From Fulvivirga kasyanovii (GTDB taxonomy: Bacteria > Bacteroidota > Bacteroidia > Cytophagales > Cyclobacteriaceae), in contig NZ_SMLW01000680.1 in assembly GCF_009711405.1 (NCBI RefSeq), forward strand, positions 1 through 52,502: 52,502 nucleotides of DNA, given 5' to 3'. Positions 1 through 20,700 of this stretch are shown piece after piece. The notes beneath the pieces were generated by a model, which had not been told where the DNA came from, did not search any database, and saw nothing but the letters and a program-made list of their open reading frames with translations. Position numbers and translations under genes: made by a program. Numbering within the stretch: the first letter of the stretch is position 1; every line of letters starts with the position of its first letter.

Positions 1-1069
1 TACGAGTTTCCAACTCGTCTTCATAGAAGCCGGAGGTCACTTTAGTGCCTACCGGATGGGCCTCATTCCATTGCTCTACCAGCGTTGCAGCATCCGTATG
101 TTGCTTAGGCTTTGATGTTTTTGTTATCGACCTACTCTTTGGAGCAGCCTTTTCATTTGCTTTTGTCCTTTTCTCTTCACTTGCTTTGGACTTAGCTTCT
201 GTTTTTCCGGAAGCGTTTTTATCGTAATCCTTTTTAATGTACCCGATCAACTTCGTCAGCACATCCCCTACGCCAAGCTCTTCAAATTCTGTTACGCCCT
301 GATCCAGCAGGTAGGTCATGCTTTCTGACCATCTTACGCTGTTCGACAACTGGTCTATCAGGTGCTGGGCTACATTTTTAAACTCATAGGGCTTGCCGGT
401 TACGTTGGCAATCACGGGTATTTTTGGCTTAGAAAATTTAGTCTTCTTTACCTGCTTTCCAAATTCTGCAGCAGGTTCTTTCATGTAGCGCGAATGAAAT
501 GCCCCGCTGGTGTTCAAAGGAATGAACATGGTATTGGCATTTTCAAAGTATGACTGGGCTTTGTTGATATCTTCTCGCAAGCCTGAAACTACGATCTGGC
601 TGGGTGCATTCAGGTTTGCAATGTCTATGGTAGTCAGCTTAGCGTCCTTCAGGATTTCCCTGATCTGTGCTTCCGAGGAATTTAAAACTGCAGCCATTCC
701 TCCATTTTTGGCCTGGCTCATCAGTTCGCCCCGCTTTTTCACCAGCTTAAGACCGTTTTCAAAGCTAAATACTCCGGCAGCTTCCAGGGCATTGTACTCT
801 CCCAAGCTATGGCCTGCCAAAAAATCCGGCTTCTTTTCACCGTCTTTCAGCTTTTTCTGGTACGAAAGGGCATTGACCACGTACAGCGCAGGCTGGGTAA
901 ATTGGGTTTCGTTCAGTTGTTTATCAGGATCATTCAGGCAAAGCTCTTTGATGGAGTATCCCAGTATCTTATCTGCTTTTTTAGTCAGCTCTGGAAACTC
1001 ATCAAAAAGGTCGCCTCCCATGCCTTTTCTTTGTGAGCCTTGTCCGGGAAATACGTATGTTTTCTTCAT
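1..1069 (-). CDS. Trans-acting malonyl-CoA:ACP acyltransferase (AT1), cut by the left edge
   Basis: Reading the minus strand from the ATG at 1069 gives an open frame of about 356 codons that runs off the window. The N-terminal GQGSQ motif (residues 9-13), GHSLG with nucleophile Ser88 (86-90) and a GAFHS motif holding the catalytic His mark a functional malonyl-type AT. The sequence resembles the AT half of PksE/BaeE. After the AT domain comes a Lys/Ala/Ser-rich linker, then a segment with GTKV and YEDELETR, which in that family leads into a PfaD-like flavin enoylreductase domain. The ER half would lie beyond the edge, so the AT-ER fusion is an inference. Role: charges the AT-less modules of PKS A-C with malonyl units. 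It starts 85 bp after the AT2 gene and is probably co-transcribed with it. Confidence 0.9.
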   Translation of the reverse strand, partial: MKKTYVFPGQGSQRKGMGGDLFDEFPELTKKADKILGYSIKELCLNDPDKQLNETQFTQPALYVVNALSYQKKLKDGEKKPDFLAGHSLGEYNALEAAGVFSFENGLKLVKKRGELMSQAKNGGMAAVLNSSEAQIREILKDAKLTTIDIANLNAPSQIVVSGLREDINKAQSYFENANTMFIPLNTSGAFHSRYMKEPAAEFGKQVKKTKFSKPKIPVIANVTGKPYEFKNVAQHLIDQLSNSVRWSESMTYLLDQGVTEFEELGVGDVLTKLIGYIKKDYDKNASGKTEAKSKASEEKRTKANEKAAPKSRSITKTSKPKQHTDAATLVEQWNEAHPVGTKVTSGFYEDELETR

Positions 1070-1154: not shown

Positions 1155-2117
1155 TCAGTATGTATGACTAAGCAGGTTGGCTTTCAACCTGTCGATATTG
1201 AGCAGGTCTCTGCCAAACTGGTTGAGCACCTGCAAAGAGACGGAACCTGAATCTGGCGGAAGAATGTATTTTACAAAGGTAGCCAGGGTACCGCTCGGCC
1301 CCACATCTATGAAAATATAATCGCCTGTATCCAAGACCCTTCTTACCGTCTGATGAAAATTGACCGGGTGCCGGATAGCCTTCCACAGGTAGTCCCCATC
1401 CGGTTGCTGTACTATTCCTTCGTTTAAGGAAGAAATCATAGGCACTTTGGGTGCCGAGATGCTTACATGATGAACAAGCTGTTTGCACTCTTCTTCTATC
1501 GGGTCTATAAGCTCGGTGTGGAAGCCGTATTTAACCGGCAGGATTTGAGACATTATACTTTTCTTGTTCAATTCTCCGTGCAGTTGCTGTATTGTAAGGG
1601 GCAAGCCGCTGACTACAAAATTTTCGGTGAAATTCTCCGCGGTCAGCCAGCAGTCGTGGAAAAGTTCAGAGTAGTCTGTCATCAATGATTTCTGCCCCAT
1701 GACAGCCAGCATGGCTGCGGGCTGGGTCTTTTCATCAGTCAACCTGGCAATATCTACGGCCAGCCTGATTCCGTCTTCCAGTGAAACTGCCTCTGACGCT
1801 ACGGCTGCTACCAGCTCGCCAACGCTGTAGCCCATAAGGAAATCTGGCTGAATATTCATTTCATTGAGTACTTTGGTCAGGCTGTACTGGATGCATAGCA
1901 AGGCTGGCTTGGTATGCAGTACGTTGTCAAAGGGCTCGCCCTTGCCTTTACCTCTGTATAGGATGTCGGTCAGTGAGGTTTTAATGATGGGTTGAACGAT
2001 TTCGTTGCACTGATCCATCCACTGCCTGAACTTGGAGTGGTTCTCATAGAGTTCCTTGCCCATCTGGTAGTATTGGGACCCTTGCCCGGAATACATGAAT
2101 ATGATCTGTTTCTTCAT
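1155..2117 (-). CDS. Second trans AT-like protein, acyl-hydrolase/AT of the PksD/PedC type
   Basis: The 320-residue protein has the FabD fold signature: SGQGSQ (10-15), a nucleophile elbow GYSVGE (96-101, Ser98) and the GFHT His200. Two points separate it from AT1. The usual GHSxG is GYSVG, and the N-terminal MYSGQGSQYYQMG pattern is typical of the PksD/BaeD/PedC clade. Members of that clade have been shown to hydrolyse acyl groups from stalled ACPs, a proofreading role, rather than load extender units. The Arg that binds the malonyl carboxylate in loading ATs is not obvious. I favour an acyl hydrolase, but a loader of another acyl unit is possible. It lies directly upstream of AT1 on the same strand. 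Confidence 0.85.
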   Translation of the reverse strand: MKKQIIFMYSGQGSQYYQMGKELYENHSKFRQWMDQCNEIVQPIIKTSLTDILYRGKGKGEPFDNVLHTKPALLCIQYSLTKVLNEMNIQPDFLMGYSVGELVAAVASEAVSLEDGIRLAVDIARLTDEKTQPAAMLAVMGQKSLMTDYSELFHDCWLTAENFTENFVVSGLPLTIQQLHGELNKKSIMSQILPVKYGFHTELIDPIEEECKQLVHHVSISAPKVPMISSLNEGIVQQPDGDYLWKAIRHPVNFHQTVRRVLDTGDYIFIDVGPSGTLATFVKYILPPDSGSVSLQVLNQFGRDLLNIDRLKANLLSHTY

Positions 2118-4399: not shown

Positions 4400-5191
4400 T
4401 TACCCGGCTTCCCAGGGGAATTGTCCGGTTTTTACAAACCTTGCAATTTTATCCAGGTTGTTTTGGTCTGAGAACACTTCGATGTTGGCTGCGAGGGCTT
4501 CTGCTTTGGAGGCCTCGGGAAAATCGTTGAGCTTGTTCATGTAATTTTTATAGCGGGCTACTCCCTCTTTGGAGAGCAACCGCAACCTTAACAGGTGTTT
4601 TCTCAACAGGTTTTCACTTTTGTCTTCATAGGCATCTACCAAACCCCAGTCGCAGGCTTGTTTTGCTGATACAGGCTGGGTCATCAGGGTCATGTAATGT
4701 GCCTTTGAAAAACCTACCTTTCGGATCAAAAACGGTAATACGCAGGCAGGCATCAGGCCGAACAGTAACTCTGACAGGCTGAATACTGCCCTTTCTTCAC
4801 AGAGCACGATATCGCAGGCAGCCACAAAGCCAATACCTCCGGCATTAGCTTTCCCCCTGACATGGGCAATGGAAACGTAGGGACCGGAAGCCAGCTTCAT
4901 CCACAGGTTGTACATCGGTTCGGGATTTTGCTCCTGGTGACCGCTCCCATTGTCAAGGCTTTGCTGAATGCTCTTGAAGTCTGCCCCGAAACAAAATACT
5001 TCGGGGGAGCCTTCCACTACCACAATCTTGGCCTGTTCTTCACACTGATCAAGTACGTGACTAAACTCTTCCACGAGGCTGTCGTTAATGGCGTTGTTGG
5101 CCTCGGGACGGTCGATCTGAATAAAACAAATGTCGTCTTCAAACCGGACTTTAATGGTTTCGTAAGTTGCTACATTGCTTAAGATACCCAT
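4400..5191 (-). CDS. Enoyl-CoA hydratase-like dehydratase of the beta-branching cassette (ECH1, PksH/CurE type)
   Basis: The 263-residue crotonase-fold protein has the FGADF oxyanion-hole segment (68-72) and the AGGIGF helix start (117-122). Its neighbour is HMG synthase, and the two genes overlap by 13 bp (start 5191, HMGS ends 5179), so they are translationally coupled. In this family ECH1 removes water from the HMG-like intermediate on an ACP to give a 3-methylglutaconyl-type thioester. Decarboxylation by an ECH2 then follows, and no separate ECH2 gene occurs here; the PksI-like domains inside PKS A and B can supply it. The start codon is preceded by AAAGAGAG in the HMGS 3' end. Assignment as ECH1 rather than ECH2 rests on sequence resemblance and context. 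Confidence 0.87.
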   Translation of the reverse strand: MGILSNVATYETIKVRFEDDICFIQIDRPEANNAINDSLVEEFSHVLDQCEEQAKIVVVEGSPEVFCFGADFKSIQQSLDNGSGHQEQNPEPMYNLWMKLASGPYVSIAHVRGKANAGGIGFVAACDIVLCEERAVFSLSELLFGLMPACVLPFLIRKVGFSKAHYMTLMTQPVSAKQACDWGLVDAYEDKSENLLRKHLLRLRLLSKEGVARYKNYMNKLNDFPEASKAEALAANIEVFSDQNNLDKIARFVKTGQFPWEAG

Positions 5192-6438
5192 TCGTACTCT
5201 CTTTTAAATTCCTTGATCTCTTTCAAAAACAGCGTCTCTCTGCCCATGGCTTTCCTGGACTGAGGTATGAAGCTGGTATCGAGTGTTACATTGCGGGTTC
5301 CGAATTTCACTGCATTGCTGCCTACAAGCAGGTTTTCGTATTCGTCCATGGTTAGCTCATACCTTTTGTCGAACTGTTCTTTGATCTTATATTTTTTCAG
5401 GCTTTGCTGGCTTTCTTCACTTACCACACCACTGAAAAACTCGGAGCAGCAGCCGGAACCGTAGGAGAAGCACCCTACCCTTTGTGCCGCTGTAAAGTTG
5501 CCGTTCTCAATGGTGCTGGCCAGGGACATCATAGCGGTAGCGCCCATGATATTGCCTATCCGCTGGCAGTAGACCAATCCTGGTACTACGCGGGTCTCGA
5601 AATCGGCTTCAATGTCCTGAGTCTTTGCTTTCACTGTTTTCCGCATCAAATTGCGGTGTGCTCCCTTGACCATGCCTCCGAATGGCGTGTGAAAGGCCAG
5701 GTAGCTGAAAGTTTTGGCGTAATCTGCCTCGGGTACCCTTTTCTGATATTCGTAAAATGCATTCTCACAGCAGTCAAGGTAAGAAAGCAGTGACAGATCT
5801 GAGTCTCCCGCCTCTCCATCAGTGGTGGGCCTGCAAGTGTCCATAACCTGGTAGCCGTAATAGCCATTGGCTCCGATATCTACCTGGAACACATAGGGTG
5901 TTTCACTCACGATCATCGCTACAGCCCCGGCACCGCCACTAGGCTCGGCAAAAGACCACTCCATGGTAAGTGCATCTCCTCCTTCTTCGATCATGAAGCG
6001 GGATACGTCGGTGGCAATCACCAAGGCTTTTGCCCCGGGTGAGGTCTGCGAAAGAATGAAATTAACGGCCATTTGAAAGCCGGCCACTCCGGAGTAACAT
6101 GCATTCTTGAGCTCAAACAAGCGACAGTTGCGGTTCAGGCCCAATATTTCATGAAAATAGGTACTCATTGATTTGCCAAAGTCAAAGGACGACTCCGTGC
6201 ATGAGATAACCAGCTCAATGCGGTCTTTCTCTTCCGGACTGAGGGCATCAATAAGTGGCTTAGCGGCATTTACTCCGTAAGTAACCGGGTCTTCATATGG
6301 TAAGGCCACGGTCTTCTCCTTCATCAGGAGGTTCTTAAACCTGGAGGTATCCAGGTTCCTGTGTTCGGCAAGCTTCTCTACATCTAAAAAAGTAGTGCCT
6401 GCGAAAACATTCATAGCTTCAATTCCTGCTACACGCAT
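5179..6438 (-). CDS. Hydroxymethylglutaryl-ACP synthase for polyketide beta-branching (PksG/BaeG/CurD type)
   Basis: The 419-residue length is typical of the family. HMG-synthase residues are visible: the general-base Glu82 in CTESSFDFGKS, nucleophile Cys114 in LKNACYSG and His250 in LAFHTPFGG, followed by the late GSGCCSEFF glycine-rich segment. It condenses acetyl-donor ACP with the beta-keto thioester on the tandem ACPs of PKS A and B, starting conversion of a carbonyl into a methyl or exomethylene branch. It is the first gene of a coupled pair with ECH1. The donor ACP and the decarboxylating KS (PksF-like) that normally accompany it are not in the window, and must lie outside or be borrowed. 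Confidence 0.94.
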   Translation of the reverse strand: MRVAGIEAMNVFAGTTFLDVEKLAEHRNLDTSRFKNLLMKEKTVALPYEDPVTYGVNAAKPLIDALSPEEKDRIELVISCTESSFDFGKSMSTYFHEILGLNRNCRLFELKNACYSGVAGFQMAVNFILSQTSPGAKALVIATDVSRFMIEEGGDALTMEWSFAEPSGGAGAVAMIVSETPYVFQVDIGANGYYGYQVMDTCRPTTDGEAGDSDLSLLSYLDCCENAFYEYQKRVPEADYAKTFSYLAFHTPFGGMVKGAHRNLMRKTVKAKTQDIEADFETRVVPGLVYCQRIGNIMGATAMMSLASTIENGNFTAAQRVGCFSYGSGCCSEFFSGVVSEESQQSLKKYKIKEQFDKRYELTMDEYENLLVGSNAVKFGTRNVTLDTSFIPQSRKAMGRETLFLKEIKEFKREYEWVS

Positions 6439-6795: not shown

Positions 6796-8799
6796 TTACT
6801 CAGCATAGGCATAAACCTTGTGAATAGCCGTCTGGGCGAACTCTTCCAGTTCTTTCTGGAAATCGGTCTCGGCCTGGGCGAGTGCTTTCTTTTGTTCGCC
6901 GTTGGGCTTTCTTTTGGCGTCGCTGGTCAGTTTGTTCAGTACCTGGATCAGGATTTCGATGTCTTCTTTGGTATTCTCAACGCCTAAACTTACCCTTACT
7001 ACGCCAGGGAGCTGGGTTTTGGGAGACACCGTAAGCACAACTCGCTGAACCTGCTCCAGTACCGGGCTGATATCAAGCAGGTGCTTAATGAGCAAGTGAG
7101 AGCAGTGGCAACCGTACCGTACTCCTATGCCCCCCTTCTGGAACATCTCTTCGGCCAGCTTGTTGTGCAGGATGTCTTTTGTTTCAAATACGATAACACC
7201 AATTTTCTTATCGAATGAACCTGAATTCTGGTCTGTAATACCAAAAATCCTGATGTTAGGTATTTTTGATAAACCATCTAATGCCATTTTGGTAAGTTTT
7301 TGTTCTTCCTCATGGATCACATCGAAACCAATTCTTCTCAAAATCACCAATGCTTTGCCTAAAGAGGCCACACCGCCGATGTTCTCTTCTCCTGATGTGC
7401 AGATCTGCCGCATTTCATCCGGCTTGTAGTTGAGCAGGCCTTTTTTGGACACCAGCACGCCGGTACCAAATGGCGCATATACTTTATGGGCTGAGAATGC
7501 CATATAGTCGATATCGTCTTTTTCCATTTCAACCTTGCGGTGTGCTACTACCTGGGCACCGTCGACCAACAGACGTGCACCATATTTATGTACAATAGGG
7601 CTGATTTTATCGATATCATTGCAGGTTCCCAATACGTTGGAAGCACCGCTTATGGCCACTACTTTGATACGCTTTTTACCATGTTTGTGATCCTGGTTGT
7701 ACTCTCTCAGGTGGTTTTCAAGCTCTACGAGGTCTACAAAGCCTTCTGCATTTACCGGTAGCCTTACCAGCGACTTCTTCGAAGCCATACGCCAAGGCAG
7801 GTCGTTGGAAGAGTGCTCCAGCAATGAAATAAGCACTGCCGGTTCTGTGTCCCTGTCATTGGAACGGCCAAGGCTTTCGGACACGAGGTTGATGGACTCG
7901 GTAGTGTTTTTGGTGAAGATGATGTCGTATTTATCCAGGGGAGCTCCAAGAATTTCGCTGCAAATGGCTTTTACTTCCCTGACCACATCCTGCTTTCTTC
8001 GCTCGGGCAGGCGCAATGCCTGACGGAAAGTATTCCATATCGGCTGGAATGTAGGTGTACTGGCACTGTTGTCGAGATTAACAAAGGGCTTCTCCCCTTC
8101 CAGTGTAGGCACGATCATGCCCAGGCCTATCAGGGTCTTTCTGAGCTGCTCCATAAGTTCCACACCTGAGTACTGCTCCAATTCATCTTTGTAGAGCAAT
8201 TCCGTGATGCCCAGATCTGTGCCCTGCAATTTTTTGAAGATATCTTTTCCATACCGCTTTAAAAGGAGCATTGCTTTGCTAAAAGCAATAACATTGACAA
8301 TAGCTGGTGTACCTGCTTCAAATTTGTCTGGTCCGGTATTCCAGATGATCCAGCCTGCGGCTACAAGCCTGGCTGTTCCTCCTCCGCACTCTGTTGGTGA
8401 ACCTTTGGGAAGGGCTTTTTTCTCTACGGCAACTGCCGTAATACCTAATGGCAGGCCTATTTCACGGCTGGTAATGGTTTGGTAGCTTCCGGGCTTGAGC
8501 AGGGAAATCAGTTCGGAAGTTCTTTTGGGTGAACAGAAAATAACTATGTACCTGTCTTTGTTCAGGCCCATGTATTCCAGCACTACACCTCTGGCGTGCT
8601 CATATAGTTGTGAAGATACCAATGAGTTGTGCCCACTTCCGCGATGTACGTTGGAATAAGTCTCAAGGGCAGCATACACTCCGCGTTCGAGCTCGGTAAA
8701 TGCTCTCTCCGCTCCTTTATTTTCAGGCATGCCATTCTGCTTTTCTTCGAGTTGGCTTACATCCGCTGATGCGTACTCAGTTTGCTTAATTGTTTTCAT
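6796..8799 (-). CDS. Chimeric class V aminotransferase / cysteine desulfurase-like PLP enzyme
   Basis: At 667 residues it is much longer than a SufS-type enzyme (about 400). Residues about 235-630 form a full class V fold-type I enzyme: LDNSAST (242-248), TTESINL, the PLP-pocket VDGAQVVAH (412-420), the Schiff-base Lys439 in SAHK, and VRYGCHCSH (560-568), where Cys566 aligns with the catalytic Cys of SufS (RTGHHCA). Residues about 40-190 look like a second, shrunken class V unit: its start (YSNVHRGSG, then YEHAR) joins directly to its late part (GGGTA, FEAGTPAIVNV), with the PLP-binding centre missing. The C-terminal tail (about 635-667) is charged and helical. Likely reactions are Cys desulfuration or C-S lyase chemistry; the substrate is unknown. 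It follows the methyltransferase gene by 79 bp. Confidence 0.8.
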   Translation of the reverse strand: MKTIKQTEYASADVSQLEEKQNGMPENKGAERAFTELERGVYAALETYSNVHRGSGHNSLVSSQLYEHARGVVLEYMGLNKDRYIVIFCSPKRTSELISLLKPGSYQTITSREIGLPLGITAVAVEKKALPKGSPTECGGGTARLVAAGWIIWNTGPDKFEAGTPAIVNVIAFSKAMLLLKRYGKDIFKKLQGTDLGITELLYKDELEQYSGVELMEQLRKTLIGLGMIVPTLEGEKPFVNLDNSASTPTFQPIWNTFRQALRLPERRKQDVVREVKAICSEILGAPLDKYDIIFTKNTTESINLVSESLGRSNDRDTEPAVLISLLEHSSNDLPWRMASKKSLVRLPVNAEGFVDLVELENHLREYNQDHKHGKKRIKVVAISGASNVLGTCNDIDKISPIVHKYGARLLVDGAQVVAHRKVEMEKDDIDYMAFSAHKVYAPFGTGVLVSKKGLLNYKPDEMRQICTSGEENIGGVASLGKALVILRRIGFDVIHEEEQKLTKMALDGLSKIPNIRIFGITDQNSGSFDKKIGVIVFETKDILHNKLAEEMFQKGGIGVRYGCHCSHLLIKHLLDISPVLEQVQRVVLTVSPKTQLPGVVRVSLGVENTKEDIEILIQVLNKLTSDAKRKPNGEQKKALAQAETDFQKELEEFAQTAIHKVYAYAE

Positions 8800-8878
8800 C
8801 TGAATCTCTTTCGTTTTTTAATTATTAGTTGAATTTGGTCTGTACTTTCTATACTTAATCAGCCTCAGCCAGTGAGGC

Positions 8879-9532
8879 TTAATCTTTCTTTGCAACAATG
8901 AAATATTGTCTCCCGGTTTTTTGCAGGCACTCACTTTCTGCTATCCTGAAACCTCTGCGGGTGATTGCGTCCACCAGTTCATCCACGCTGTAAGTTTTCA
9001 GGTTTGGGATCAGTCCGAGCTTGCTGACCAGGGAAAGGGCAATACCTGCAAACGACCTTTTGCCCATGCAGGGTGTCACGGAAATGAACAACCCTCCCGG
9101 CTTCAGCAATTCGTGAACCCTTCTCAGTGCCTTGGGCATATCTTCCAGCAGGTGAAGCAGGTAAACGCCTAAGATCACATCATAAGTCCCCGGTTTGTAT
9201 TGTGGATCAAATATAGTTGTGTGTGTATACTGAATGTTTTGAATATCCAGCTCATCGGCGTTTTTTTGGGCCAGCCGGATCATTTCCGATGAAATATCCA
9301 AGCCATGGACGGTTTGTACATCTCCGGCAATTTCGTTGGCAAGTATTCCGGTGGCACACCCGAAATCCAGGACTTTGTCCTGCTTTTTGAGGTACCTCCT
9401 GGTCCGGTCAAGGATTTTCAAGCGTACGGCTTTATCCTTCATTTCTTCCTTATCGTACCCTCCGGCACTCTTGTCCCAGAATTTTTCCGATTTGTCTGTC
9501 GTCTCTTGTGAGGTGTGGGGTTGGTTTTTCAT
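8879..9532 (-). CDS. Class I SAM-dependent methyltransferase
   Basis: The 217-residue protein has Rossmann motif I VLDFGCATG (54-62), an acidic loop HGLDIS after strand 2, and the YDVILGVYLLHLLED post-motif followed by LLKPGGLF, all typical of UbiE-like small-molecule methyltransferases. A free enzyme, it would act on the nascent or released product (O-, S- or C-methylation). No cMT domains occur in the PKS modules, so it is the only methyltransferase visible. Its place between two cysteine desulfurase-like genes (31 bp after NifS/IscS, 79 bp before the chimeric enzyme) makes S-methylation an attractive guess, but nothing in the sequence fixes the acceptor atom. Confidence 0.85.
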   Translation of the reverse strand: MKNQPHTSQETTDKSEKFWDKSAGGYDKEEMKDKAVRLKILDRTRRYLKKQDKVLDFGCATGILANEIAGDVQTVHGLDISSEMIRLAQKNADELDIQNIQYTHTTIFDPQYKPGTYDVILGVYLLHLLEDMPKALRRVHELLKPGGLFISVTPCMGKRSFAGIALSLVSKLGLIPNLKTYSVDELVDAITRRGFRIAESECLQKTGRQYFIVAKKD

Positions 9533-9563
9533 GATCGCGGCCTGAGTTGGTTAAATTTTAGTT

Positions 9564-10721
9564 TTAAAGCTTATCATCCTCAATATACTGTTTAAGCACC
9601 TTTAATGTGTATTTAATGTGTTTCGGTTTCGTGGCGGTACCAAAACTTATCCTGATAGACTCCTGTGCTGCTTCGTCTGACAACCCGATAGCTTTTAATA
9701 CATGTGAGGGTTTGTTAGAAGACGTGCTACAGGCAGAACCTGCTGAAACGGCAATGCCATGAAAATCAAGCATCTTCATTAATTCCCCACTACCGATACC
9801 CGGAAAGGTCAGGTTGATGGTATTGGTCAAACAATTGTCCATCGGAGAGTTAATGATAATATCGCTTTTGATCGCTTTCAATTCATTAAGGAATGTGCGC
9901 TTAAGAGACTCATTTTGCATTGAAAATGTTACAAGCTTATTCACATGTTTGCAAGCTTCTCCAAAGCCGGCAATGTTATGGATCGACTCAGTTCCTGCAC
10001 GCATGCCTTCTTCCTGATGTCCACCGTGAATGTAAGGCTCTAAGGGACAGCTAATTCTGGCGTACCAGGCTCCAATGCCTTTGGGGCCATAAAGTTTGTG
10101 GGCAGAAAATGTGGCATAATCTACATCCAGATCTTTTACATTGATCGGGATCTTGCCCAGCGCCTGCACGCAATCGGAAAATACCAAAGCCCCTTTGGCC
10201 CGCGCCATTGCGGCTATCTTTTTCACATCCTGGATCGTACCGATCTCATTATTGGCCAACATGCAGCATACCAGCGAGGTCTTATCATCGATCATGGCAT
10301 CCAGCTTATCAAGGATCACACGGCCTGAGCTGTCTATCGGGCAATACTGCACGTCAATACCCTTTGTTTTCAAATATTCCAGGGTATTCATCACCGACGG
10401 ATGCTCTATGGGTGTAGATATGATCTTGTTTTTATCAGGGTAGAAATGGTTGCTGACCGTTTTCAATAAGGCATTATTGGATTCGGTGGCACAACTGGCA
10501 AAATACACCTCATGTGAATGCGCCCCGATGGCAGAAGCCACCTGCTCACGGGCTTTTTCAATGATCTGTGCTGACATTTTACCCTTGGCATAGCCCGATG
10601 AAGGGTTGCCCCAATAAGTTTTCAACACCCGGTTCATCACACTCCTCACGGGAGGTGCAATGTGGGTTGTTGCGTTATGATCGAAATAAACGTTGCGTTT
10701 ACCCAATAACTGTTTTATCAT
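9564..10721 (-). CDS. NifS/IscS-type cysteine desulfurase
   Basis: The 385-residue length is normal for class I desulfurases. Visible landmarks are FDHNATT (13-19), CATESNNA, the PLP-stacking His107, VFSDCVQALGK in the cofactor pocket, Schiff-base Lys209 in SAHKLYGPKG, HGGHQEEGMRAGT, and the flexible catalytic loop SAGSACSTSS with Cys331. It takes sulfur from L-cysteine as an enzyme persulfide. Such enzymes usually serve Fe-S assembly, yet no scaffold gene (IscU, IscA, ferredoxin) accompanies it. It is packed between a cysteine-rich protein (30 bp) and a methyltransferase (31 bp) in a polyketide operon, which argues for a dedicated sulfur donor. Family assignment is secure; the pathway role is inference. 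Confidence 0.92.
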   Translation of the reverse strand: MIKQLLGKRNVYFDHNATTHIAPPVRSVMNRVLKTYWGNPSSGYAKGKMSAQIIEKAREQVASAIGAHSHEVYFASCATESNNALLKTVSNHFYPDKNKIISTPIEHPSVMNTLEYLKTKGIDVQYCPIDSSGRVILDKLDAMIDDKTSLVCCMLANNEIGTIQDVKKIAAMARAKGALVFSDCVQALGKIPINVKDLDVDYATFSAHKLYGPKGIGAWYARISCPLEPYIHGGHQEEGMRAGTESIHNIAGFGEACKHVNKLVTFSMQNESLKRTFLNELKAIKSDIIINSPMDNCLTNTINLTFPGIGSGELMKMLDFHGIAVSAGSACSTSSNKPSHVLKAIGLSDEAAQESIRISFGTATKPKHIKYTLKVLKQYIEDDKL

Positions 10722-10751
10722 GGCAATTATATTTTAAAATACTTGTATGGA

Positions 10752-11573
10752 TTATAGTGCGGCAAGCGCATCGATGATCTTCTTACAACCTCCGTTTTTG
10801 ATGTAATCGGAGTGATCATCTATATCTTTAAACTCTTTGCCGGTGATCTTGCTGCACATTACTTCAGAGTCAGTCTGCACGTAAAATGCTCTCAACATCT
10901 TCTTCTGCTCCTGGGCGTCAAATGACGAGGCAGATTTACCGGGGTTTTTCTTGAGCCAGTCAACCATTTTGTACCAGATGGCGGCACTGAGTGCTCCACA
11001 TTCCTTTCCGCTAAGCCCAAGACCTCCGGCGTACCCGGCCACCATGAGCATTTCTTCATCGGTTCCCCCCATTTTTCTCACTACTTCAGAGGCACAGCTC
11101 ACTGATCCCGGGCAGAACTTGACCGTGTCGTCAGACAATCCTTCATCGGCTGACTTGATGGCTTCGGGTGCCCATTTTCCAGCAAGCTTCATACAGGTAA
11201 AGGCTTTACCGGTAAACAGTACCTTGAGTGGGGCCAGTTTGCCTGAGAGGTCCATATCGGTGATATCGCGGCAGCTTATGGTGTTCGTTCTTTTGGTAAA
11301 TGACTGCATCAGGTGCTGGGTGGCAGTAATAGCCATGGCCACAGCCGTGCCCGTGTCTTCGTTTCTACGATAAGATTCTGCCCCGGCAGCCAGAACAGCG
11401 CCACCTATCAGTCCGCATTGGTAGCCTCTGTTCAGTAGTCCGCCCGCAAAAGGAGATGCGGCTACCTCTGCAACTTCATTAGGTACACCGTACTCTTCAT
11501 TGAGCAGTGAGCAGAATGCCGTACCGCATGTTCCTCTGGATAATACTTTGAGACCGTCTTTATAAGCTTTCAT
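10752..11573 (-). CDS. C_GCAxxG_C_C family redox protein, internally duplicated
   Basis: The 273-residue protein has ten cysteines (16, 21, 53, 101, 127, 154, 160, 192, 240, 263) and no signal peptide. It contains two similar halves. Each has a first Cys, then a glycine-rich segment with CG (FAGGL...QCGLIGGA, 42-59; YAGGLGLSGKECGALSAA, 181-198), then a later lone Cys. This matches the family named for C_GCAxxG_C_C, annotated as putatively redox-active; its biochemistry is poorly known. Adjacent to a cysteine desulfurase, it could accept persulfide sulfur, carry a metal site or reduce a disulfide. It is the first gene after PKS C (142-bp gap). Confidence 0.8.
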   Translation of the reverse strand: MKAYKDGLKVLSRGTCGTAFCSLLNEEYGVPNEVAEVAASPFAGGLLNRGYQCGLIGGAVLAAGAESYRRNEDTGTAVAMAITATQHLMQSFTKRTNTISCRDITDMDLSGKLAPLKVLFTGKAFTCMKLAGKWAPEAIKSADEGLSDDTVKFCPGSVSCASEVVRKMGGTDEEMLMVAGYAGGLGLSGKECGALSAAIWYKMVDWLKKNPGKSASSFDAQEQKKMLRAFYVQTDSEVMCSKITGKEFKDIDDHSDYIKNGGCKKIIDALAAL

Positions 11574-11715: not shown

Positions 11716-14700
11716 TCATACCGCAGAGAAGGTGTCGTCTGCCTCTACAGCCAGGTCGCCAGGCAGTTCGTCCTGCACTACTCCTGCCGGACTGAATGCC
11801 CTTACATAGAAGTTTTTGATGCTGGCCAGCACATCACCGGCTTCATTGATGATCTTGATGTTAAACTTTTTGATATTGGCGTGTGCATGACCTTCGGCAT
11901 CCACCTGCTCCACATAGGCATAGCAGGTGTGTGGCAATGAGCGGAATATCTCTATTTCGTCAATCGCGAAAGGTACATGGGGCACGGCTGCATCCATCTG
12001 CCCTACCAGGCCTGCCACCGTCTGCAAGGCACCATCCATGATGCTTGGATGGAGAATGAAGCGGTCAAAATCAGCTTTCAGGTGATCTGCCAGTTTCAGC
12101 TTTGACAAGGCAAAGGAGCCATTGACATAAAACTCCTGAATGGTCCGGAATGCCGCACCATAGTTAAAGCCTACCTGGCTGAAAACATCATAGTAGTGGG
12201 TACCATCCTGAGGTCCGGAGCACTGTGCTTTGAGTTGTTGCACGGAAAGATTTTCAATGCTGGCTGCATGGCCATTCTGAAAATACAGCCGGCCTTCGGA
12301 GTGTAATATCCTTTCATTTTCATCATCCAGCGAAGTGATCCTGAATTCGGTGCCACTTCCGCTAGGCTTTAGCGAGGTTTGTACAAACTGAGAGCCATTC
12401 CTGAAACTAAGCGGGTGCGCCCATACGATATCTTTGATCTTACTTACTTTCTGCTCTCCTGCCAGATTACCGGAGATGTTGGCCATCTCTATGAATCCGG
12501 AGCCGGGGAAGATCTTTTCACCATTCACCTGGTGGTCTATGGCATAGAACTCGCTATCCGACAGCAGGGAACTGAAGCTGATTTCCCTTAAAGTGGAAGA
12601 GTTATGTGAGACGAGCGGGTGCAGTTGTGCCTGTTGAGGTTCTGCTTTTTGCTTCCTTCCGGCCGGCTGGTCGGTCACCCAGTATCTTTGACGGGCAAAC
12701 GGATAGGTTGGCAGCGAAATACGTCCGGGTTTGCTTTCTGCATATAAACCTTCCCAATCCACATCCACACCGGAAATCCACATTTGGGCCAGTTGATCCA
12801 GCTCTCCGGCCTCAAAAAGACCCCGGATCTCTTCTCCACGATCAGGCGCCCGCTTCCTGCCTTTGCGAGGGTCTATGGTAGCCTGATATACATGATCTGC
12901 GGTTTTCTGCTTTCTCCAGGTTTTCAAACGGTCGATAAGCTCTGCTCTGTCGGCGGCTACCACGGCCAGCCTTTCCGGCATAGCTTCCCGCCCAACCTGC
13001 AGGGTAAACGACAGGTCCGCCAGGCTTACGTGCTTTTCATTGCCTGCAAAGGTGAGCAAGCGATCAGCATACTCTTGCAGGCGCTCGTTGTCTTTTGCTG
13101 AAAGCACGACCAGTTGGGGTATTTTCTCTTGGTTATGCTGCATGGGTTTAGGTTTTTTATATTCTTCGAGTATCAGGCACGCATTCACACCACCGGCTCC
13201 AAACGAATTGATGAGTGCTCTTCGCGGGGCACCGGGGGCCGGGTCCCATGGAGACAGTTGATGTTGAAGGTAGAATGGAGACTCTTTGAATTCAATATTG
13301 GGGTTTACTTCCTCTGAATTAATGGTTGGTACCAGTTGGCGGTGCTTCATTTGCAACAGCACTTTGGCCACTCCGGCTATGCCTGCCGCCGACTCGGGAT
13401 GCCCGATATTGGCTTTGACTGATCCCACCGGGGCAAACTGCTTTTTCCCGGTCTGCTTCCTGAAGGCATTGGTCATGGCTACGATCTCCAGACTGTCACC
13501 CAACTGTGTACCCGTACCGTGGCCTTCAATGTAGCTTATGGTTTCGGGGTTAATGTTGGCCTTGCGCAAAGTCTGCTCAATTAAATTGGCCTGGGCATTC
13601 GGGTTGGGCGCAGAGTATCCGTTAGACCTTCCGCTGTGGTCATAAGCACTTGCCGAAACCACTGCATAGATCTGGTCGTTGTCTGCAATGGCTTTGCTGA
13701 GTGGCTTCAGCAGCACTGACCCTACACCTTCGCCTGGTACAAACCCATCATCACCGGCACCGTAACTAAAGCACTTTCCGGTGCGGGAGATCATGCGGTT
13801 TTTGCAGAATGAATGGTACTTCGACGGATGCAGGTATAAATTCACCCCACCGGCCACGGCCACCTGGCACTCTTGTTTTCTCAGGCTTTCACAGGCCAGG
13901 TGTATGGCTACTGAAGAGGAAGAACAAGCCGTATCAACTGGCATACTCGGGCCGTTAAAATCGAGTAAATAAGAAACCCTGTTGGCAATAGACCAGGGGT
14001 GTGCGCTTGGCGTGGTATTTCCATTGCTCCACTCCTCTGCGGCAAGCAGGTTGTATGTATTGGTAGTAACACCTACAAAAACCCCTACATTGGCACTTTT
14101 GGCTTTAGCATGTTTCTTTTTCAGGCTTTCTTTGGTGTATCCGGCATCTTCTATAGACGACCAGACCGATTGCAGGAACAGCCTCTCCTGCGGGTCCATG
14201 ATCCTGGCTTCATCCGGGGTGATATTAAAAAACTCAGGATCGAATTTATCCACGTCATTGATAAAGCCTCCCCATTTGCAATAAATTTTACCTTCCCTGG
14301 CCTTTTCAGGATCTTCGTGATAGTAGGCCTCGCTGTCCCACCTGCTTGCGGGCACCACATCAGTGAGGTCTTTACCTTTTTTCAGGTTTTCCCAGTATTT
14401 ATTGAGGTCTTCCGATTGCGGATAGCTTCCGTGTACGCCAATAATGGCAATCGGCTCGGTATCTTCGTATCTGGCGGGCGATGGTGCTGCCTCTCTGATC
14501 TCTACCCGGTGATGCTCTACTACCTGCACTTTTTCTTCGTATGAAGTAGTTTCCCGAACCTCTTCTTCTACTTCATGATCCAGACCCAGGAAGCTGATCA
14601 AAGCCTCTTTTTCATCAGCCACCATATAGGCAGCCAGTTCTTCTATGGTTGAGTATTCGTAGAATAAGGTCTTGGGCAAAGCGCCAAGGTCCCTTTCCAG

Positions 14701-17700
14701 ATTAGCATTCAGCTTGCTGATCATGATGGAATCAATGCCGAAGGTCTCGAAAGGTTCCGTAGGATCAATGCGCCCGGGCTCGAGTTTGATCTCTTCGCCG
14801 ATCAAAGCCTTGAGGTAGGCCTCGGTCTTTTCAAGAAGTTCCTCAGCATCCATGGCTTTGGCAGGGGCCGGTTTGCTCTTTTCAACCTCTGTAACCATAT
14901 GCCCGATGTAAGGCTTGATCCTTGATGAAAACCCGTAAAGGGGAACACCTTGTGAAAGATCAGACATGAGGAATTCTTCGAGGTACTGAATGCCTTCCTG
15001 CACAGGTAAAGGACACAGTCCGGCCTGTTGCTCGATCATAGCTACTTCCTCATCAGCAATGTGCATACCACCTTCTTCCCAGTAAGTCCAGTTGACAGAC
15101 AGGGTTTTGCCGGTGCGCTTTTGTGCTTTGACCAGGCTTTCCCTGTTTTCTGCAAATGAATCGAGGAAATGGTTGCCATAGGCATAATCGCACTGCCCCA
15201 CGTTGCCCATCACTCCGGCTATGGAAGAGAACAGGATGAACACATCCAAATCCTCCTCACGGGTAGCCAGGTCAAGGTTAATGGTTCCGTAAATCTTCGG
15301 CGCCAGCACTTTGTCCATCTCCTCCCGGGATTTCCTGAGTATGAATGAGTCAATGTTGACCCCGGCACTATGAAGCACACCATTTACCTGTGAAAAACGT
15401 CCTTTTGCAGTTTTGACTACGTCTTCCATGTCTTCCAGGCTGGATGCATCGGCCTGTAGATAAAGGATTTCGGTCCCGTATGCCCTGAGCCGCTCAAGTT
15501 TTGCCTCCTGAGCTGCTTTTAGTTCAGAGCGCCCGAAAATCACGAGGTTGCACTGATAGTTCTTAACGAGGTATTCACTGAAAACAAGACCTAACCCTCC
15601 TAAACCGCCTGACACAATGTAGACACCATTTTGCTTTAACGGCAATTTGTCCTTAATGCCCTCTATGCGGACATACTGGGCCAGTTCCCTGACATAGCGG
15701 GTGTAGCCCTGTTTTTCTTCCCTGAATTTGTAGCGGACTTCATTTTTCTTCCAGTTTCCATCGTTGAATTCATCAACAATGATGCGGACTTTTTCTTCGG
15801 TTGGCACGCTGACGTCCTCACCGCGCTGAACCTCAATAGTTTTACCGTGGTAGTGAGGATTCTCCAAAGCAAGCGTTTTAAAGAAGCCTCCTAATGCGGC
15901 GCTAAACGGAGCCGCAACATCCTGACTATTAAAGATCGATAAAATTTGAACCGGGGCGTGATGCTTTTGTGCCATCAATGCTTTGCAGAGGTTAAACAGG
16001 GCAACGATGCCGTGGTTAACCTGACGGGTTACCTCATCTGTTTTTTCCAGACTGCCTGTATTCAAGGCCTGATGAACAACCCGGTAAGGAAGCTGATCTT
16101 TTTTGGCGAGGCTCTCTACCAGTTGCTTAAAATGATCTTCCTGCTGAAGGTCAAGGGTGTATACTGATGGTTCAACCTCCTGAAATGACTTGCCCGACTT
16201 GATGAAAATTACAGGCTTATCTTGTCCATATTCTTTCTGTATGGCTTCTAAAAGTTCATCTGTAGCATTCAGCATGAGGATCGGACTTTTCTCCGGGGTT
16301 TTTTCTTCTGATATGCCCAATGTTTGCTCCACCCAGTGCGGCTGATAGTGCAGCCTCCTCTTTTTCTCTTCTTCCGGTTCGCCATCGGTATCGATCTCCT
16401 GAACAACAAACTGATCCGTTGACAGTGAGAATGCCGGGGTTTTGATCCAGTACCGCTCTTTGGCAAATGGATAAGTAGGTAAGGAAACCCGCTTAGGCTG
16501 AGCATGTTGATAGAAAAGGGACCAGTCTATGTCAGCACCGGAAATCCATAGCTTCGCCAGCTTTTCCAGATTTCTGGTCTCCATGATCACTTTCAGATAG
16601 GCCCGGCCTTCTTCCCCTTCCAACAGAGCAGTGGCATCGGAGGGTGCGCTTTTAATATTGCCATGATAAGTGCCTTCCAGCTCGTTCACTGATTTTTTAG
16701 AGCCTGTCTCTTGCTGAACTGTCAGCCATTGTCGCAGTTTTTCTTCCAGTTCCTGCATGCTGGCTACTATTATGACCAGGCGCTCATTCATAGGGGTTCG
16801 CCCTACCTGAGCGGTGTACACGATGTCTGTCAGCGACGTCTCTTTGTTTTTGACCAGGAAGGCAAGCATTTTTTCTGCATACTTCAAAAGTCCATTTTGG
16901 TCTTTCGAAGAAAGCACGAAGGCCTGCGGTATACTATTTTCAGGTTCGTTTGCCTGAGTGGCTACCGTGTTATATTCTTCAATAATAAGATGGGCATTGG
17001 AACCTCCCGCTCCAAAAGAACTGATCCCGGCCCTTCTCGGGAACCCGTCTGGCTGTGCCCAATCTGCCAATTCACGCTGTACATAGAATGGCGATTCACT
17101 GAAATTGATGTTCGAGTTTAATATCTCTGCATGCAACGACGGCACCAACTGCTGATGCTTTAACTGTAGCAATACCTTGGTTACGGCTGCAATTCCTGCG
17201 GCTGATTCCAGGTGCCCGATGTTTGACTTCACTGAGCCTATGGGGCAGAATTGCTTTTTACCGTCTGCCTCTCCAAAAGCTTTGTTCAGTCCGGTAATTT
17301 CAATAGGATCGCCCAAAGCTGTGCCTGTACCGTGAGTTTCAATATAACTCAGCGTAGCCGGATCAATGTTAGCCTTTTTAAGCGATTCGATGATCAGGTC
17401 GCCCTGAGCAACAGGATTAGGTACGGAGTAGCCATTGGTTTTTCCTCCATGATTGATTACGCTCGACTTGATGACGCCATAAATATGGTCACCATCCTCA
17501 ATCGCTTTATCCAGGGATTTGAGTAATACGGCCCCTACACCTTCACCGGCAACATAGCCATCACCACCATCGCCAAAACTTCTGCACCTGCCATCGCTGG
17601 CGGCAAAATTCCCCTGGCTCAACACCAGGTATTTGTGCGGATGAATGGACACGTTGACACCTCCGGCAATGGCTGCCTCAATATCTCCTTTCCTGATTTC

Positions 17701-20700
17701 CTCACAAGCCTGATGTATGGCGGTAAGTGATGAAGAACACATGGTATCCAGGGCAATGCTGGGGCCATGCAGGTCTAAGAAATAAGATACCCTGTTCGCT
17801 ATGGAAGCATAAGACGAACCCGGCACTATAGCATTGCCGGTCAACATAGCTTCAGCGCCATAAAGCTGGTATTGGCCGTACATAACGCCGACATAAACGC
17901 CAACGCGTCCCATAGCCGATATGCCCTCTTTGCTATATCCTGCATCTTCAATGGTCTGCCAGGCCGCTTCTATGAAAAGACGCTCCTGCGGATCAATTAA
18001 TTCTGCCTCTTTCGGAGATATGTTGAAAAACAAAGGATCGAATTTATCTACATCAGAAATAAATCCTCCCCATTTGCTATAGGTTTTGCCTGCCTGATTG
18101 CGCTTAGGATCAAAAAAGCGTTTGGTATCCCAGCGATCTTCAGGTATTTCGGTTATACAGTCTTTGCCATTCTTAAGGTTTTCCCAAAACTCATCCAAAT
18201 TCTCCGATAATGGATACTTACCACTCAAACCAACTATAGCTACTTCCCTTGCCTTAACATTGGTTTCATTCCCGTTGAAGCGGTTGCGGGAAGCCAGCGT
18301 GGGTATCACCGGTTGCTTTTTAGCAGCCGCCTGAGGAGTAACTACCGGAGCAGGAGCTACTGTGTTGCCCTCAACCTTATCTAAAATGATCTGAGGATAG
18401 GATTTGGCAAGGAAGCCAGCCAGACTTTTAATCGTCTGGTACTCGAAAAACAGTGTCTTGGAAAGTGATCCAAAGGTTTCTTCCAGCATGCTGGTCAGCT
18501 TCATGGCCAGTATGGAATCGATGCCATAGTTCTCCAAAGGTGCTTTGGCATCAAGCTGGCTGACCGGTATCTTCAGGACTTCTGCAAACTCCTTGCGCAG
18601 ATAGGTCACCGTTTTATCCAGCAGATTGCTGGCTTCTGCCTGAACGGTAGGAGTCGTCTCAGTGCTAATTGCACTTGGTGCCGGAGTAGCTTCCTCATAG
18701 CTGCTTTTGTCAAGATGAAGGATACGGCGCATTTTCTTCAGATCGCCTTCCATCACAAGCATTTGGCTACCTGATGATGCCAGGCTACTATAAAATGCCG
18801 CTACGCCGGAAGAGGCCTGCAATGGCTGTATGCCTGTAGCCTGCTCCAGCATGTCTATGTTTTCCTGATCAATACTCAGATGACCACCTTTCCACAATGG
18901 CCAGTTGATAGAAAGTGTTTGTCCATGTCTTGCCTTCTGCTCTACCAGTTGGTTGCGGTAAAATGCGTACTGATCCATGAAGGCATTAGCCGCGGCATAG
19001 TCTGCCTGCCCAACATTACCCATAGCGCCGGATAGTGAAGAGAAAAGGACCATGAAATCAAGCTCGATATCTTTGCTGGCTTCATCAAGGTTAACCGTAC
19101 CGGTGACTTTAGGTGCCAGCACCTTGTTCACCTCTTCGCTCGTTTTCTTCAGAATAAAGCTATCCGAAATCATTCCTGCACTGTGAATGATACCATTGAG
19201 TTGCTTGTGTTCCTTCTTAACCTCAGCAACAACTGCTTTTACCAGATCCTGATCATTGAGATCCAGTTGTTTGTAGATAACCTGACCTTCATCTTTAGAC
19301 AATGCAGTAAGCATAGCCTGCTTTTCTTTGGTTAGCTCAGAGCGACCGGTAAGTATAACCTTTGCTCCCTGAGTGTGCTTCAAGATTTCTTCGGCAAACA
19401 AGACTCCCAGAGCACCCAGACCACCAGTGATCAGGTAAACTCCATTATCCTTAAGCACCGCTTGGGGTTCTGTTTGGCCTACTGATACTTCCTCCCATTG
19501 CAGAACGTGAGCAGCATCTCCCTGATATTTAATGAAAGACTCTTCCGGCCTGTTCTGTGCTTTTTGAAGCTGACCTGCAAGTTCTTCTGCTGTGATATCG
19601 GGCTTTGTTAGTATGACCTGACCTGTAAGTTTAGGATTTTCCTGATTCGCGGTTTTCAGCAATCCTGAAAGTCCGGCCAATAATGTCTGATCTTTGTGAT
19701 CAGGTACAACCACCTGAATCAGTACTTTCCCTTCTGGTTTATCTTTTATAATATTTTGTATTTGCTCAAATACGGCCACAACATACTCGCTGTAACGAAC
19801 TGCTATGTTCCCTTTAGAAACTTTGAGCTGTAAGCAATGACTGTTATTCGTCAAACGCTCAAGCTCTCCGGCCTGGATAGCTGGCAATTCGCAAAGTATG
19901 ACGTGCTTTTGCTCAAATGCCGACTGTGATACTGGCAACTGCATGTCGCAGGGTACCCAGACCGGCTTAGCCATTAAGGTGCCCTTTCCTTTATTTTGGG
20001 CATCAACAGCATCTACATTCAGTTGTCTGGACGACAGTCCTCTCATTTGGACGCATACATTGCCCTCCTGATCGCACAGGTCAATATCCAGCTTGGTAAT
20101 GGCATCTGTAGGCTGACTTCCTTGGGCATAGCGAACCCATGCATACATGTTTTCAGTCGCCGGAGCTATGACACGGATAGTGTCTAACGCAAAAGGAACT
20201 GAGGGCTGTGAAGGAAGTGTGGTCAGGTCTTCTAACAAACCAAAAGCTGATTGCAATGCACTATCCATCAGGCTGGGGTGCAACATGTAATCGTGCTGGT
20301 CTAACGCTACCGCTTTAGGCAACTTCAATTGTGCCAATAGCTGTCTTTCTCCCTGATAAAGCACTTTTATGCCCTGATAGGCAGGTCCATAGTGCAGACC
20401 CATAGAGGTAAAGATCGGGTATAAGTTCTCTGCCTCAATTTTGCCTCTGGTCAATTTGCTTTTAAGCTCAGTGATATCCAGCGCCTGGCCTTCGGCATGG
20501 CTGGAAAATCTGGCTACTCCCTGGCAATGAACAACTTCCTGCTCATTGTCCCAACTGGAGATCTCAAAATTTATTTGTTCCCCTCCTTTTACAAAAAGGG
20601 CTATATCTACCTGCTTGTGTTCTTCTACCACTAAGGGTTGTGCCCAGGCGGTATTGTGCAATTCCAGCACTCCTGAACCCGGCTCAACGCCCGCGGCTCT

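Follow-up and report, generated by a model that had tools for sequence, protein, structure and literature searches.

The closest described counterparts of the locus considered here are the assembly lines for leinamycin, guangnanmycin and weishanmycin, in which an ACP-DUF-SH segment is embedded in a trans-acyltransferase (trans-AT) polyketide synthase (PKS) and an HMG-CoA synthase (HMGS) beta-branching cassette accompanies it (PMC8479088). The SH domains, homologues of tyrosine phenol-lyase, are thiocysteine lyases that install an -SSH group, and in guangnanmycin biosynthesis a cluster methyltransferase, GnmP, acts as a hydropersulfide methyltransferase (PMC8479088). A different logic is found for the thiotetronates thiolactomycin and Tu 3010, in which a NifS-like cysteine desulfurase and a thiouridylase-like protein are encoded at a separate locus with homologues in most Streptomyces genomes, and deletion of the desulfurase gene abolished Tu 3010 production (PMC5518548). 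Here we describe a compact group of four genes, the island, which places two desulfurases inside a beta-branching trans-AT PKS cluster of the Bacteroidota species Fulvivirga kasyanovii. The DNA analysed (the window) covers bases 1-52,502 of the 85,616-base contig NZ_SMLW01000680.1. The island comprises the following genes, listed in the direction of transcription:

10752..11573, minus strand: double C_GCAxxG_C_C (PF09719) protein with ten cysteines, 273 aa (Pfam 3.4e-21, two stretches)
9564..10721, minus strand: IscS/NifS-type (group I) cysteine desulfurase, 385 aa (NifS model 384 bits, cut-off 530.75)
8879..9532, minus strand: class I S-adenosylmethionine (SAM) methyltransferase, 217 aa (Pfam Methyltransf_31 7.8e-22)
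6796..8799, minus strand: SufS-type (group II) cysteine desulfurase, 667 aa (Aminotran_5 5.4e-76)

All four open reading frames (ORFs) were confirmed on the minus strand, where the first-pass annotation had placed them. The gaps between them are 30, 31 and 79 bp; the end of the PKS C gene lies 142 bp upstream of the group and the start of the HMGS gene 357 bp downstream. Coordinates and family matches thus agree with the first-pass description of a compact, same-strand group between PKS C and the HMGS/ECH genes. The same gene order recurs in three Fulvivirga genomes and five Aquimarina-type loci, that is, in 8/8 loci holding the set, and so the arrangement is not a matter of chance; a sulfur-handling island inside a beta-branching trans-AT cluster, and conserved with it, is what the comparison bears out. 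Also upheld is the lack of iron-sulfur (Fe-S) scaffold genes: none was recognised by Pfam among nine window genes, eight flanking genes of a complete relative of the same genus (G408) and five further cluster proteins, or by eye in one regulator and in portions of the other two PKS proteins.

The first-pass annotation had gone on to propose that free-standing machinery stands here in place of the DUF-SH pair of leinamycin. This part has to be given up, for the same cluster also encodes an ACP-DUF-SH segment. In G408 the trans-AT genes are followed by the island, by PKS C, B and A, and by a 6,936-aa PKS; beyond these lie genes for export, for oxidoreductases, for an ACP-KS-ACP-TE protein and for a class III aminotransferase, and then the gene for a 3,506-aa PKS, which starts with ACP-DUF-SH (ACP at residues 10-89, DUF at about 156-470, SH at about 516-915) and continues KS-DH-KR-ACP-KS-DH. 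In the window's genome the PKS gene with DUF-SH falls on another contig (G000:C118:7720-9978).

The pyridoxal phosphate (PLP) domain of the 3,506-aa PKS is, on sequence evidence, an SH domain of the thiocysteine-lyase type. DUF and SH are adjacent within a PKS protein and follow an ACP, as in described DUF-SH PKSs. The best solved-structure match of SH is 9cen, a "Polyketide Synthase Protein" (9.3e-61), ahead of the tyrosine phenol-lyases. Comparison with PKS SH domains gives 239-256 bits, against 180 for tyrosine phenol-lyase and 161 for tryptophanase, the last two being compared as short stretches. In a plasmid collection, 80 records match the DUF plus the PLP domain, tryptophanases making up most of those listed; only one of the 80, a giant PKS of Streptomyces xanthii, covers at least 80% of the DUF-SH query (38% identity over 99%). 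There the DUF-SH PKS is followed by an LnmK-family gene, an ACP and an HMGS. Two further annotated loci, from Streptomyces and Kitasatospora, have the same neighbours, and an unannotated fourth has an LnmK match; to these four leinamycin-type loci the DUF is 41-45% and the SH 34-37% identical. The PLP lysine column of SH is kept in all aligned rows; next to it four SH domains from Aquimarina-type genomes (L029, L030, L032, L033) read SLAKNF, and the other Bacteroidota ones SLAKDF.

The architecture nonetheless differs from that of the leinamycin family proper. The latter carries KS-ACP-ACP-DUF-SH-TE at the end of a protein (PMC8479088), whereas here ACP-DUF-SH, with a single ACP, opens the protein and the TE resides on another. 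The present cluster differs further in its Bacteroidota host, in its four-gene desulfurase cassette and in LnmK, a feature that we take as typical from the Streptomyces and Kitasatospora loci examined here: the LnmK of S. xanthii, compared with the ORFs of a 120-kb stretch of G408, found no homologue (best E 0.77). A single ACP and no TE are, on the other hand, what annotated DUF-SH modules outside the leinamycin family possess (PMC7618002). Beyond the leinamycin family, DUF-SH clusters of three further families have been described (PMC8479088). The network of 109 DUF-SH PKSs in that study may already contain the Bacteroidota DUF-SH proteins.

Taken together, these observations lead us to consider it probable, with moderate confidence, that the four genes form an optional sulfur-mobilising and capping cassette on a trans-AT cluster in which a PKS-embedded DUF-SH installs the sulfur. 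In such a pathway, the IscS-like and SufS-like enzymes would take sulfur from cysteine as an enzyme persulfide. The ten-cysteine protein, standing in for SufE or a scaffold, would accept and relay this persulfide or keep it reduced, and sulfur in persulfide form (for example, thiocysteine) would thereby reach the ACP-DUF-SH station. The DUF would add thiocysteine to the ACP-bound chain delivered by PKS C, and SH would cleave the adduct to leave -SSH. The island methyltransferase could then cap the -SSH or -SH by forming a methyl (di)sulfide, in the manner of GnmP in the guangnanmycin pathway (PMC8479088). It is likely that the cluster product carries sulfur, more so than could be argued from the island by itself in the first-pass annotation.

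The active sites of both desulfurases are consistent with the first step. Aminotran_5 matches the two proteins about equally (5.4e-76 for the SufS-like, 2.3e-75 for the IscS-like), and their nearest NCBIfam models are SufS and NifS, respectively, both below the curated cut-offs. Aligned to 1ecx and to E. coli IscS, the IscS-like protein has an intact Lys209 (SAHK) and an intact Cys331 (GSACSTSS), invariant in seven aligned sequences; the PLP lysine and a catalytic cysteine within a GSAC loop are those of a group I desulfurase. Other paralogues in the window's genome are 26-35% identical to it, and one of the genome's desulfurase paralogues sits in a sufB-C-D-S-E operon (recognised by eye), from which we conclude that the island desulfurases are extra copies.

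The SufS-like protein presents a more unusual picture. Its alignment with SufS enzymes spans approximately residues 290-580 and shows the lysine and the HC loop preserved (GCHCSH opposite SufS GHHCAQ), and Lys439 and Cys566 are invariant in eight aligned sequences. It thus has the PLP lysine and HC catalytic loop of group II, and shares with type II SufS (PMC10011822) these elements and the glycine-rich-loop/hairpin sequence; the beta-latch, however, does not lie within the catalytic domain. The catalytic half shows a 19-residue gap at SufS 257-275, which comprises the GGG loop and the residues that follow, and the protein carries about 235 extra N-terminal residues in which the glycine-rich-loop/hairpin sequence is instead found. 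Between residues 126-192 and positions 248-314 of the housekeeping SufS encoded in the same genome, the alignment has no gaps; residues 125-190 score 86, where the best of 300 shuffles reached 44, and the whole extension scores 98 against 76. The NVHRG motif of the extension is invariant in the eight sequences, its alignment alone being not significant (42 against a shuffle best of 49). We infer that the extension may be a fused pseudo-subunit that supplies the beta-latch in cis. An AlphaFold2 model of the protein was poor (mean pLDDT, the predicted local distance difference test score, 47.2 with eight sequences). The same rearranged form is seen in a 55% identical relative in a metagenome-assembled genome with no PKS nearby (L009), and the rearrangement is therefore not tied to this PKS cluster. 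That relative (L009 10001-11980) adjoins, as judged by eye, a DUF4395-like membrane protein and a heavy-metal P-type ATPase. Unlike in SufS systems, no SufE or SufU was recognised in the cluster.

We know of no assigned function for the C_GCAxxG_C_C family. The 273-aa island member scores above the Pfam PF09719 gathering cut-off (76 bits against 27, over two stretches) and slightly under that of NCBIfam TIGR01909 (44.2 against 47.4). It has exactly ten cysteines, all of them invariant in seven aligned sequences (the window and six loci). Between F. kasyanovii and F. marina, 272 of its 273 residues are identical with 0.60 synonymous differences per site (dN/dS, the ratio of nonsynonymous to synonymous change, of ~0.001), which makes it the most constrained of the eight genes compared; synonymous change is saturated in three of the eight, and dN/dS is given for five. 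The sole solved-structure match at E up to 10 is at chance level (E 0.14), and the AlphaFold2 model is poor (mean pLDDT 39.7, seven sequences). We propose that the protein is a persulfide or redox carrier.

The methyltransferase is present in all seven aligned island loci and is the least conserved of the eight genes in the F. marina comparison (73%). Its assignment reaches the general class I SAM-methyltransferase family only; S-methyl capping is a proposed role, and the substrate that this implies a putative one.

The distribution of these genes ties the island to the cluster. Of 10 genomes searched, 9 carry DUF-SH, the window's own included (eight distinct genomes, G402 and G487 having been counted as one F. 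marina assembly because their matches fall at identical places); the sole miss, G491, has a SufS-like gene with no PKS nearby. Island and DUF-SH thus occur together in eight distinct Fulvivirga and Aquimarina-type genomes. Within the genus, the DUF is found in 4/15 genomes (1e-10) and the SufS-like protein in 3/15 (1e-80). Among GTDB contigs, the SufS-like protein has seven close relatives, six in this PKS cluster and one outside; the other seven of the 14 loci retrieved (L012-L018, 22-27% identity) were set aside as ordinary class V relatives. In a sample of 395 Bacteroidota genomes, the DUF (1e-20) and the SufS-like protein (1e-100) each occur once, in the window's genome. The C_GCAxxG_C_C protein is found at 1e-10 in 3 of 98 relatives' genomes, all holding the PKS cluster, and at 1e-5 in 13 of the 395, where, besides the window's own, two matches are full-length. 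These two stand-alone double relatives, L055 8575-9402 (in G310) and L056 155-976 (in G361), are 52% and 48% identical; judged by eye, they keep nine and eight of the ten cysteines, and both lack the one at position 21. No PKS was seen beside either.

The first-pass annotation had named wide occurrence of the gene set in Bacteroidota away from PKS clusters as one finding that would refute its reading. For the SufS-like and C_GCAxxG_C_C proteins, which are those that the 395-genome survey covered, a widespread housekeeping set can be rejected (1/395, and two others in 395, respectively); the IscS-like protein and the methyltransferase lay outside the survey.

Several observations weigh against the reading that we favour. 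One is a sister cluster in another Fulvivirga genome (G395), which keeps ACP-DUF-SH, homologues of PKS A, B and C, HMGS, ECH, DUF1302 and both ATs, and has none of the four island genes. Its PKS C homologue, split over two ORFs, extends to 86,684, and HMGS begins at 86,809; ECH, DUF1302, AT2 and AT1 come next in their customary order, interspersed with some additional genes. For none of the ORFs on its 99,452-base cluster contig is an island protein the best match, and the genome holds no SufS-like match at 1e-80 and no C_GCAxxG_C_C match at 1e-10; its nearest IscS paralogue is 35% identical. This cluster is the more divergent one, its PKS C pieces being 53-56% identical as opposed to 70-72% for the Aquimarina-type loci. 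DUF-SH therefore does not need the island, and the island must be regarded as an optional cassette rather than the primary sulfur-installing machine. Likewise, no desulfurase or C_GCAxxG_C_C homologue is present within 20 kb of the four Streptomyces and Kitasatospora leinamycin-type loci, the only matches there being to HMGS, to PKS and, at three of the loci, a weak one of 26% to the methyltransferase. When the Aquimarina-type loci are compared, HMGS (92%) is slightly ahead of the C_GCAxxG_C_C protein (90%) in conservation. No desulfurase lies near the two stand-alone C_GCAxxG_C_C relatives (~12 kb and 5.5 kb read), and that of L055 adjoins a Fur-family regulator and a catalase-peroxidase (katG-like, by eye), a neighbourhood that fits a general redox role. 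As to free-standing machinery instead of DUF-SH, this candidate is ruled out by the structure match of SH, by DUF-SH in the window's own genome and by the identities to leinamycin-type domains, and the sister cluster that keeps DUF-SH without the island speaks against substitution as well. With DUF-SH in the same cluster and an island-less sister, the island would add to the PKS sulfur step.

Just what it adds is where the alternatives diverge. The cassette may deliver sulfur of its own at a second site, such as a beta-branch alkene or chain release, independently of DUF-SH, in which case the product would have two kinds of sulfur; this comes near to the proposal of the first-pass annotation, with addition in place of replacement. 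The cassette, its own methyltransferase included, is either wholly present or wholly absent, and DUF-SH is retained in both cases; this would suit the idea, as would the three beta-branch modules, which could offer Michael acceptors, and the precedent of Tu 3010 and its NifS-like desulfurase (PMC5518548); yet the cluster genes that were scanned or read include no recognisable separate enzyme for C-S bond formation, be it thiouridylase-like, a P450 or a second lyase, and we deem the idea unlikely. The island might instead protect the producer, by handling persulfide or H2S stress or by building and repairing Fe-S centres during the synthesis of a reactive hydropersulfide. The Fur and catalase-peroxidase neighbours of the one stand-alone C_GCAxxG_C_C relative, and the membrane protein and heavy-metal ATPase beside the PKS-free SufS-like relative (all by eye), point in this direction. 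A methyltransferase in so compact a unit would, however, be unexpected for Fe-S repair, the genome has its sufB-C-D-S-E operon elsewhere, and the cassette sits between PKS C and HMGS wherever it occurs, in 8/8 loci; a protective role thus appears quite improbable to us. More remote again is the prospect that one of the PLP enzymes, or both, no longer acts as a desulfurase and instead carries out another class V reaction on the polyketide. Their scores under the curated desulfurase cut-offs and the rearrangement of the SufS-like protein could be read this way, but the PLP lysine and the loop with the catalytic cysteine are preserved without variation in both enzymes, and we regard this as very improbable.

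The sulfur-mobilising cassette that we favour also admits a bolder formulation, which we hold only as a speculative and rather unlikely extension. Here the island would be a portable "second sulfur" cassette, whose C_GCAxxG_C_C persulfide carrier is loaded by two desulfurases, one of them a new fused form in which a pseudo-subunit provides the beta-latch in cis. Together with the methyltransferase, the carrier would turn the hydropersulfide left by DUF-SH into a thioether or a methylated polysulfide, a product out of reach of the cassette-less sister cluster. With regard to precedent, the cluster shares with the thiotetronate pathways (PMC5518548) the association of a NifS-like desulfurase with a sulfur polyketide pathway, here at the level of genes; it differs from them in bringing two desulfurases, a C_GCAxxG_C_C protein and a methyltransferase into the cluster itself, and in that no thiouridylase was recognised. 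The term "cysteine desulfurase" does not occur in the main text of the leinamycin-type study (PMC8479088), and in the open-access literature (subscription papers, preprints and supplements being outside the scope, as was a Streptomyces genome paper containing both "leinamycin" and "cysteine desulfurase", PMC11857848) we found no paper linking cysteine desulfurases or C_GCAxxG_C_C proteins to DUF-SH PKSs.

The remaining assembly-line and beta-branching genes of the window are these:

41693..52348, minus strand: PKS A, with one beta-branch module (three ECH domains, two ACPs; domain map)
27073..41394, minus strand: PKS B, with one beta-branch module (three ECH domains, two ACPs; domain map)
11716..25548, minus strand: PKS C, DH-KR-ACP-KS-DH-KR-ACP-KS-KR-ACP-KS-DH, ending without an ACP (domain map)
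5179..6438, minus strand: HMG-CoA synthase homologue, HMGS, for beta-branching (Pfam HMG_CoA_synt_C 1.5e-18)
4400..5191, minus strand: free-standing enoyl-CoA hydratase (ECH) of the beta-branching cassette (NF005498 4.8e-127)
1155..2117, minus strand: trans-acting acyltransferase AT2 (Acyl_transf_1 1.1e-40)
2..1069, minus strand: second trans-acting acyltransferase AT1, cut by the contig end and running off the window (385-aa homologue in G408)

The PKS proteins would act in the order 6,936-aa protein, A, B, C, 3,506-aa protein and TE protein, consistent with both the gene arrangement and the split modules. We propose that PKS C, with its KS-DH end and no ACP, hands its chain to the ACP-DUF-SH start of the 3,506-aa PKS. 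A third beta-branch module with three ECHs and two ACPs is found in the 6,936-aa PKS of G408 (local 65417-86227, L019-L024 joined). The ECHs at positions 1, 2 and 3 match their counterparts across modules at 55-69%, 50-51% and 73-76%, and each other at 18-31%; from these identities, the tri-ECH unit seems to have been copied between beta-branch modules. Between PKS B and PKS C lies a 409-aa ORF (25821-27050) with no match in Pfam, NCBIfam or, at E 0.1, the solved structures; it contains a SHMVSDG stretch, which we take to recall the HxxxDG motif of condensation and acyltransferase enzymes. A DUF1302 protein is encoded in the window at 2527-3939, and LolA-like/DUF1329 and MMPL proteins elsewhere in the cluster (L023 8949-12546), which suggests a dedicated export system.

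The cluster may already have a known product. The trans-AT polyketide cuniculene was reported from Aquimarina sp. Aq78, and its cluster from A. muelleri (PMC9323603); both named carriers (PMC9323603, PMC9860996) hold the present cluster. In Aq78, 12 of the 13 matches to a RhiE-like linker lie on the two contigs holding it and the last on a further contig; this marker is not exclusive to trans-AT PKSs, as it matches in 2 of 14 control genomes. Because both strains carry the cluster and nearly all linker matches fall on its contigs, this is very probably the cuniculene cluster, an identification based on the carrier strains and linker matches. Further linker matches in the window's genome lie on its contigs C76, C144, C226 and C343, and it probably holds more PKS clusters.

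The cassette places a C_GCAxxG_C_C protein in a probable sulfur pathway, next to a rearranged SufS whose active-site latch sequence has moved to a fused extension. Were the "second sulfur" formulation true, the C_GCAxxG_C_C family would gain a function, and with it a new kind of sulfur-carrier protein would come into view. The source of thiocysteine for DUF-SH assembly lines is unsettled, the leinamycin work pointing to a housekeeping cystathionine gamma-lyase (PMC8479088). Since one genus holds clusters both with and without the desulfurase cassette, the question of thiocysteine supply becomes directly testable by comparison of their products, and since the cluster is probably that of a known compound, cuniculene, its chemistry could be checked without new isolation work.

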